Below the pieces are notes generated by a model that searched no databases, was not told where the DNA came from, and saw nothing but the letters and a program-made list of their open reading frames with translations. 45,504 bases of DNA, taken from positions 1 to 45,504 of the forward strand of contig MKRX01000010.1 in assembly GCA_001898035.1 (NCBI GenBank), in the 5' to 3' direction. The position numbers and the translations under genes were made by a program. This stretch comes from Armatimonadetes bacterium 55-13. Lineage in GTDB: Bacteria; Armatimonadota; Fimbriimonadia; Fimbriimonadales; Fimbriimonadaceae. This document shows, piece after piece, positions 27,932 to 28,518 of the stretch; the stretch's first letter is position 1, and the number at the start of each line of letters is the position of its first letter.

Positions 27932-27938
27932 ATTTGCC

Positions 27939-27967
27939 TTGGAAGAAACCAGATCTATTGGTATAGT
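27939..27967 (+). promoter_or_regulatory. Sigma-70-type promoter of the RRM protein gene
   Basis: TTGGAA at 27939-27944 and TATAGT at 27962-27967 are separated by exactly 17 bp. The transcript would start near 27974, leaving a leader of about 125 nt before the ATG at 28099. Confidence 0.6.
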
Positions 27968-28031
27968 TTCATAGTTTCGGAAAGTTTCGCGCCTTGCCTC
28001 TTGCACGTCTGTGTGCCAAAAAGCCAGTACA

Positions 28032-28098
28032 GAGCGAGTCTTGCCTGTCGCAGAATACGAACCGGACGGTTCCCGGGCTCGCTCGGGCAAGGACAGAA
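28032..28098 (+). promoter_or_regulatory. Structured leader of the RRM gene, candidate RNA switch
   Basis: Three helices are possible. Helix a joins GAGCGAG (28032-28038) with CTCGCTC (28078-28084). Helix b joins CTTGCC (28040-28045) with GGCAAG (28086-28091). A small hairpin, GAACC-GGAC-GGTTC (28059-28072), sits inside both. Helices a and b cross, so they form either a pseudoknot or two alternative folds. Helix b covers part of the ribosome site AAGGA (28089-28093), six bases before the ATG; helix a leaves it free. Confidence 0.5.
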
Positions 28099-28518
28099 AT
28101 GGCTACAAAAACTTTATACGTCGGGAATCTCCCGTACTCCACATCAGAGAGTGACCTCTTGGAGCACTTTGGCGCGTATAACGCAGTCAAAGCGCGTATC
28201 GTCGAAGGCCGAGGTTTCGGTTTTGTCGACATCGACGAAGACAAACTTGACGACGCCATTAACGAAAAGCACAATTCCGAACTTGGCGGTCGCAAACTCA
28301 CCGTAAATGAGGCCAGGCCCAAAGCGCCAGGGGGCGGAGGCGGTCGTGACTTCGGCGGCGGAGGCCGGGATTTCGGGGGAGGCCGTGACCGCGACTTTGG
28401 TGGCGGCGGGCGTGATCGCGATTTTGGCGGTGGCCGAGGTGGCGGCGGTGGCCGGGGTGGCGGATTTGGGGGAGGCCGCGGCGGCGGCAAAGGCGGCGGC
28501 CGCGGCGGTCGTTACTAG
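28099..28518 (+). CDS. RRM RNA-binding protein with glycine-rich RGG tail
   Basis: From ATG 28099 (MATKTLYVGNLPYS) the protein is 139 aa: one RRM with RNP2 (LYVGNL) and RNP1 (GRGFGFVDI), then a roughly 60-residue tail of GGGRDFGGG and RGG repeats ending in GGRY. The small-RRM plus Gly-rich layout resembles cyanobacterial cold-induced Rbp proteins, which bind single-stranded RNA. The RRM lacks a few residues in loop 3 compared with the typical 80-residue domain. The repeat-rich DNA (28327-28515) is protein-coding. Expression is probably controlled by the long leader. The stop TAG lies in a CTAG shared with glgP. Confidence 0.9.
   Translation: MATKTLYVGNLPYSTSESDLLEHFGAYNAVKARIVEGRGFGFVDIDEDKLDDAINEKHNSELGGRKLTVNEARPKAPGGGGGRDFGGGGRDFGGGRDRDFGGGGRDRDFGGGRGGGGGRGGGFGGGRGGGKGGGRGGRY
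28327..28512 (+). repeat. GGC-rich coding repeat of the RGG tail
   Basis: Imperfect tandem units encoding GGGRDFGGG/GGRDRDFGGG and RGGG recur over about 190 bp. They are in frame with the RRM gene, so they are a low-complexity protein repeat and not an intergenic array. Confidence 0.8.

Follow-up and report, generated by a model that had tools for sequence, protein, structure and literature searches.

The mRNA leader of an RRM-RGG protein gene in an Armatimonadota genome of the family Fimbriimonadaceae could be a cis-acting translational brake peculiar to the genus. Based on fold modelling, we give this reading a probability of about 0.4, and it is closely rivalled by the absence of any function. 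By default, the segment GGGCAAGG, which holds the Shine-Dalgarno sequence (SD), would pair with an upstream anti-SD copy, CCTTGCCT, and helix a would nest inside that pairing, leaving the ribosome site shut (Table 1). A second anti-SD copy may capture the same SD arm; since it would then exclude helix a, the alternatives would be two closed states and one open state. Opening would require co-transcriptional timing or a trans factor, for which the RRM protein itself is the likeliest candidate, along with other RNA chaperones and helicases. The computed part of this model consists of the arms, the predicted closed state, a flat temperature response, the promoter and an excess of SD complementarity in the class. 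As for cells, we infer that the closed state exists there and would control translation, with the RRM protein as its putative effector.

The RRM-RGG gene and its leader

The window, that is, the whole stretch of DNA analysed, covers 45,504 nt, and all coordinates refer to it. The encoded 139-aa protein has a single RRM and an RGG-rich tail. Its gene lies downstream of a HAD hydrolase gene on the same strand and is followed by a convergent glycogen phosphorylase gene. The promoter with 17-bp spacing and the leader of about 125 nt, both announced in a preliminary description of this DNA, were found again, the transcript start at about 27974 (GTTTCGG) being inferred from the promoter position. 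The promoter is kept in the nearest relative, L005, which belongs to the same genus and shares 84% identity over the RRM; there, TTGGCA-17-TATAAT is followed by GTTTCGG in the same layout as in the window. The RRM frame is open upstream as far as TTG 27994 (27994-28518), and the conserved start is the ATG at 28099.

Table 1. Positions of the RRM-RGG gene, its promoter and the pairing segments of its leader in the window.
Feature	Position	Strand	Remarks
RRM-RGG protein gene	28099..28518	+	139 aa, MATKTLYVGN..., RRM_1 E 4e-12
Promoter TTGGAA-17-TATAGT, sigma-70-like	27939..27967	+	also in L005
mRNA leader, ~125 nt	27974..28098	+	inferred start to ATG 28099; aligned with L005 (alignment A5)
First anti-SD copy (5' arm of helix b'), CCTTGCCT	27992..27999	+	inverted repeat; pairs with 28085-28092
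Helix a, 5' arm GAGCGAG	28032..28038	+	pairing in window and L005 only
Second anti-SD copy (5' arm of helices b and b2), GTCTTGCCT	28038..28046	+	direct repeat of first copy
Hairpin GAACCG/CGGTTC	28059..28072	+	1/5 pairs kept in L005
Helix a, 3' arm CTCGCTC	28078..28084	+	repeat search
Ribosome-site arm, GGGCAAGGAC	28085..28094	+	SD AAGGA 28089-28093; common partner of both anti-SD copies

To our knowledge, bacterial RRM proteins have been little studied outside cyanobacteria, and if the RRM genes of Armatimonadota carry dedicated leader elements, these would offer a direct handle on the targets and the regulation of the proteins. The window leader itself would be of modest value, as a plausible but lineage-specific closed leader.

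Crossing helices and the predicted closed state

The preliminary description proposed that two mutually crossing helices, each enclosing a small hairpin, switch access to the ribosome site. The elements themselves are all present in the sequence, namely helix a (7 bp), helix b (CTTGCC 28040-28045 with GGCAAG 28086-28091, 6 bp) and the hairpin GAACC(G)/(C)GGTTC. The arms indeed follow each other in the order a-b-a'-b', and helix b overlaps part of AAGGA. There is, in addition, a third perfect helix that had escaped that description, formed by seven Watson-Crick pairs between CCTTGCC (27992-27998) and GGCAAGG (28086-28092). Designated b', it extends to eight pairs between the first anti-SD copy and GGGCAAGG, and is nested with helix a. 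Its 5' arm repeats the b arm in direct orientation, the segments 27988-28005 and 28035-28052 being 78% identical. This repeat provides the two competing anti-SD copies, and a third TTGCCT is found at 27934-27939.

In the ensemble prediction, helices a and b' both have a pair probability of about 1.0 from 5 to 55 °C, which argues for the brake, whereas helix b, the presumed blocking helix, has a probability of 0.00 over the same range. The constrained energies are -46.4 kcal/mol for a with b', -40.7 for b, -39.8 for its shifted register b2, -38.1 for an open SD and -36.1 for the P1 and P3 helices described below; helix b is thus about 6 kcal/mol worse than the nested pair. The ribosome site is accordingly predicted to be closed at every temperature modelled, by a nearest-neighbour model that ignores pseudoknots, Mg2+, co-transcriptional folding, kinetics and proteins. 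Since helix a is nested inside this predicted closed fold, it belongs to the closed state and not, as had been proposed, to the open one. A two-state switch between a and b likewise finds no counterpart in the ensemble, where helix b is unpopulated, pseudoknots being outside the model. Of the initial interpretation, one idea is supported in outline, namely that the leader is probably able to shut its own ribosome site; the choice of blocking helix, the part given to helix a and the link to temperature are not supported. A true a+b pseudoknot has the arms alternating in the required order, but its linkers would be one base each (28039 and 28085). In the usual H-type geometry, such linkers are too short to span the 6-7 bp of the other helix. 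Given also the strong competing nested fold, we regard the pseudoknot as extremely improbable.

Almost as probable as the brake is that crossing helices and a closed fold arose by chance in a GC-rich leader and have no regulatory role, the conserved leader parts serving the promoter, the start site and mRNA stability. When the leader was shuffled with dinucleotides preserved, a helix of at least 7 bp crossed by one of at least 6 bp appeared in 293 of 2000 shuffles (15%), and crossing helices with exactly one on the SD in 107 of 2000 (5%). Nor is the fold of the window leader more stable than those of shuffles (z -0.73). The Rfam covariance models gave no match to this leader at gathering or permissive thresholds.

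The suggestion of a temperature switch was confronted with the predicted SD exposure. An RNA thermometer or cold switch, in which helices a and b would swap with temperature, should have the SD paired when cold and exposed on warming. In the model, the window SD is paired at 5-20 °C (exposure 0.17-0.20), and the exposure stays flat at that level up to 55 °C. In L005, exposure even drops on warming, from 0.37 to 0.21, and the helix b needed for the swap is missing from the window ensemble throughout. Since the SD is predicted to be closed at all temperatures, the thermometer is unsupported, and we consider it very unlikely. What speaks for it is the function of cyanobacterial RRM-glycine proteins in cold adaptation: PMC9333190, citing Maruyama et al. 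1999, describes type I rbp genes as encoding an RRM with a glycine-rich tail, with cold-response boxes conserved in the 5' UTR of some. The window leader resembles SD-sequestering RNA thermometers in that the ribosome site is paired to an upstream anti-SD, but differs from them in having no predicted opening on warming. Similarly, it recalls the cspA-type cold-shock leaders, which also precede the gene of a small RNA-binding protein and have alternative folds, though here the protein has an RRM instead of a cold-shock domain and no temperature shift is predicted. What it has in common with autogenous operators, for example those of ribosomal proteins, is that the gene for an RNA-binding protein carries a structured leader of its own, autoregulation being putative here.

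Comparison with orthologous leaders

BLAST searches with the leader in the family and the order gave, over the leader itself, a match only in the genus relative L005. Between the two leaders, 6 of the 7 pairs of helix a, 5 of the 6 of helix b and 7 of the 8 of b' are kept; with a single pair retained, the hairpin is not conserved. Changes on both sides of a pair were found in none of a, b, b' and the hairpin, and the break in b', an uncompensated T to C, counts against the brake. On the other hand, the shifted register b2 (28038-28042 with 28090-28094 and 28043-28045 with 28086-28088, A89 bulged) is kept in 8 of 8 pairs, with one change from U-G to C-G. The SD of L005 is also predicted to be closed, through the second copy in this shifted register (exposure 0.24 at 37 °C), as the brake would have it.

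For the comparison across genera, orthologs were called by the gene order HAD-RRM-glycogen phosphorylase, because a seven-member clade of the protein tree proved unstable once sequences were added. Both flanks are present in L005, L016 and L031, the HAD side in L032, L038, L121 and L124, and the phosphorylase side in L012 and L015. Pairing of the GAGCG arm with the segment preceding the SD exceeds shuffles only in the window (p 0.009) and in L005 (p 0.03); in seven other syntenic orthologs it does not (p 0.27-0.99), and helix a is missing there. The loss of helix a beyond the genus and the lack of two-sided changes fit an origin by chance, against which stand the p values of the helix a arms within the genus and the full conservation of b2.

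Helices a and b as a conserved switch were rejected, given the lack of two-sided changes between the window and L005 and the missing helix a in the other syntenic orthologs. The preliminary description had named absent conservation or covariation of the arms in relatives as evidence against its switch, and this largely holds for helix a and the original register of b, the shifted b2 being the exception. A weak apparent covariation of a and b in the MAFFT alignment A3 (reached by 3 of 500 shuffles and dependent on the alignment) was not taken as support: only 62% of the helix a cells pair, the second pair of this helix is broken in 6 of 8 rows, and for most of helix b just two rows contain letters.

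The leaders of the sister genus g5 (L016, L032, L038, L121 and L124) have a conserved fold in common, made up of P1, which is a long-range helix, the internal P2 and P3, a hairpin ending just 5' of AAGGA. Their SD is predicted to be mostly open (exposure 0.67-0.79), and this different fold is a further point against the brake. When coding sequence was added (L213-L217), AGAGCG/AGAGAG of the g5 orthologs paired with codons 5-6 (CGCTCT/CTCTCT), with one two-sided change from C-G to A-U.

A covariance model built from the five g5 leaders, R1, matched the window leader over its full length, in register with the SD and the ATG. This match, of 10.4 bits, was the best in 2 kb (E 0.013), with an E of 0.55 over 86 kb; L012 was matched with 18.5 bits (E 0.0037 in 86 kb), and the L005 leader gave no match. 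The R1 matches suggest that the window, L012 and g5 leaders are probably homologous but rewired. They also raise an unlikely, though not negligible, alternative: that the working fold of the window leader is of the sister-genus type, with P1 (27986-27991 with 28049-28055), P3 (28072-28077 with 28082-28087) and AAGGA open after P3, and that the RRM protein represses by binding to the UACG segment in between. The two R1 matches and the shared locus of the genes favour it. However, P1 with P3 is 10 kcal/mol worse than a with b' in the window, the E value over 86 kb is weak, L005 is unmatched, and the g5 core has one two-sided change among its 31 pairs.

RRM gene leaders across the Fimbriimonadales

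To compare leaders as a class, the best duplex of each with its own SD was set against shuffled leaders. Among deduplicated RRM leaders of the order, 23 of 94 reached p<0.05 and 7 reached p<0.01 (median 0.15, KS p 5.6e-12, class-wide values that overstate the evidence because the RRM leaders are mutually related and not independent). Ordinary genes, taken from the window and from loci around other RRM genes, gave 9 of 105 at p<0.05 and 0 at p<0.01 (median 0.64). This lends some support to the view that RRM gene leaders of the order close their own ribosome site more often than ordinary genes do, an excess that favours the brake and weighs against chance. The window leader taken alone is not significant (p=0.10-0.13), which counts against the brake; the values are 0.01-0.02 for L005 and 0.003-0.005 for L034. 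The RRM leader of L034 (L034:1383-1503) contains a near-perfect SD-closing helix, AUUGUCCUU/AAGGACAAU, and GACC/GGUC, with a predicted SD exposure of 0.04. When the anti-SD segments of six leaders were matched or swapped, the matched set ranked 11-18 of 720; since the segments were picked by eye, this result is only suggestive.

A separate conserved element, class A, which is the stronger result of the analysis and lies outside the window leader, occurs on RRM genes of the Fimbriimonadales and was modelled as R2, with GTTACG at the transcript start and a CCGGUUC/GAACCGG hairpin. GTTACG is present in 52 of the 111 RRM leaders of the family, 3.5 being expected by shuffling, usually at the inferred transcript start, and in none of the 68 leaders of RRM genes in other phyla. 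Many of these leaders share the hairpin as well, with 84.5% of cells paired, compared with 13-54% in slid registers; three of its pairs have two-sided changes, and 3 of 500 shuffles covaried as strongly. The covariation of the hairpin beats slid registers, a result that is not decisive. In the 113 genomes of the class, R2 found 25 places, spread over 23 genomes and two families; by their coordinates, 24 of these immediately precede an RRM gene (L256-L277 and L279-L280, from 22 genomes in two Fimbriimonadales families; for example G048:C2:631235-631346:-). The exception, in G089 (E 0.037), has no adjoining RRM match. Class A would be a previously undescribed element; Rfam holds no counterpart of it and gave no match for the related leaders.

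Such a leader element, almost exclusive to RRM genes, suggests that leader-based control of these genes is common in the order. It is possible, if somewhat less probable than the brake, that the RRM-RGG genes of the Fimbriimonadales are leader-controlled, many paralogs through the class A element and others through fast-evolving SD-closing leaders like that of the window, in one autoregulatory circuit. Compared with the cyanobacterial rbp genes as described in PMC9333190, the likeness lies in the single RRM with a glycine-rich tail and in leader boxes conserved in many family members of the order; the window leader differs in lacking the GTTACG element common in its own order. R2 found no match in that leader, which has GTTTCG instead of GTTACG, nor elsewhere in the window's genome. 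Contig C25 of the same genome carries two tandem RRM-RGG paralogs (L002:480-1610), each with a third leader type, a GCGAGTTTTGT ... GTACGTTACGAAACTCG stem, which is common to L130, L155, L162 and L169 and, in family f2, L243.
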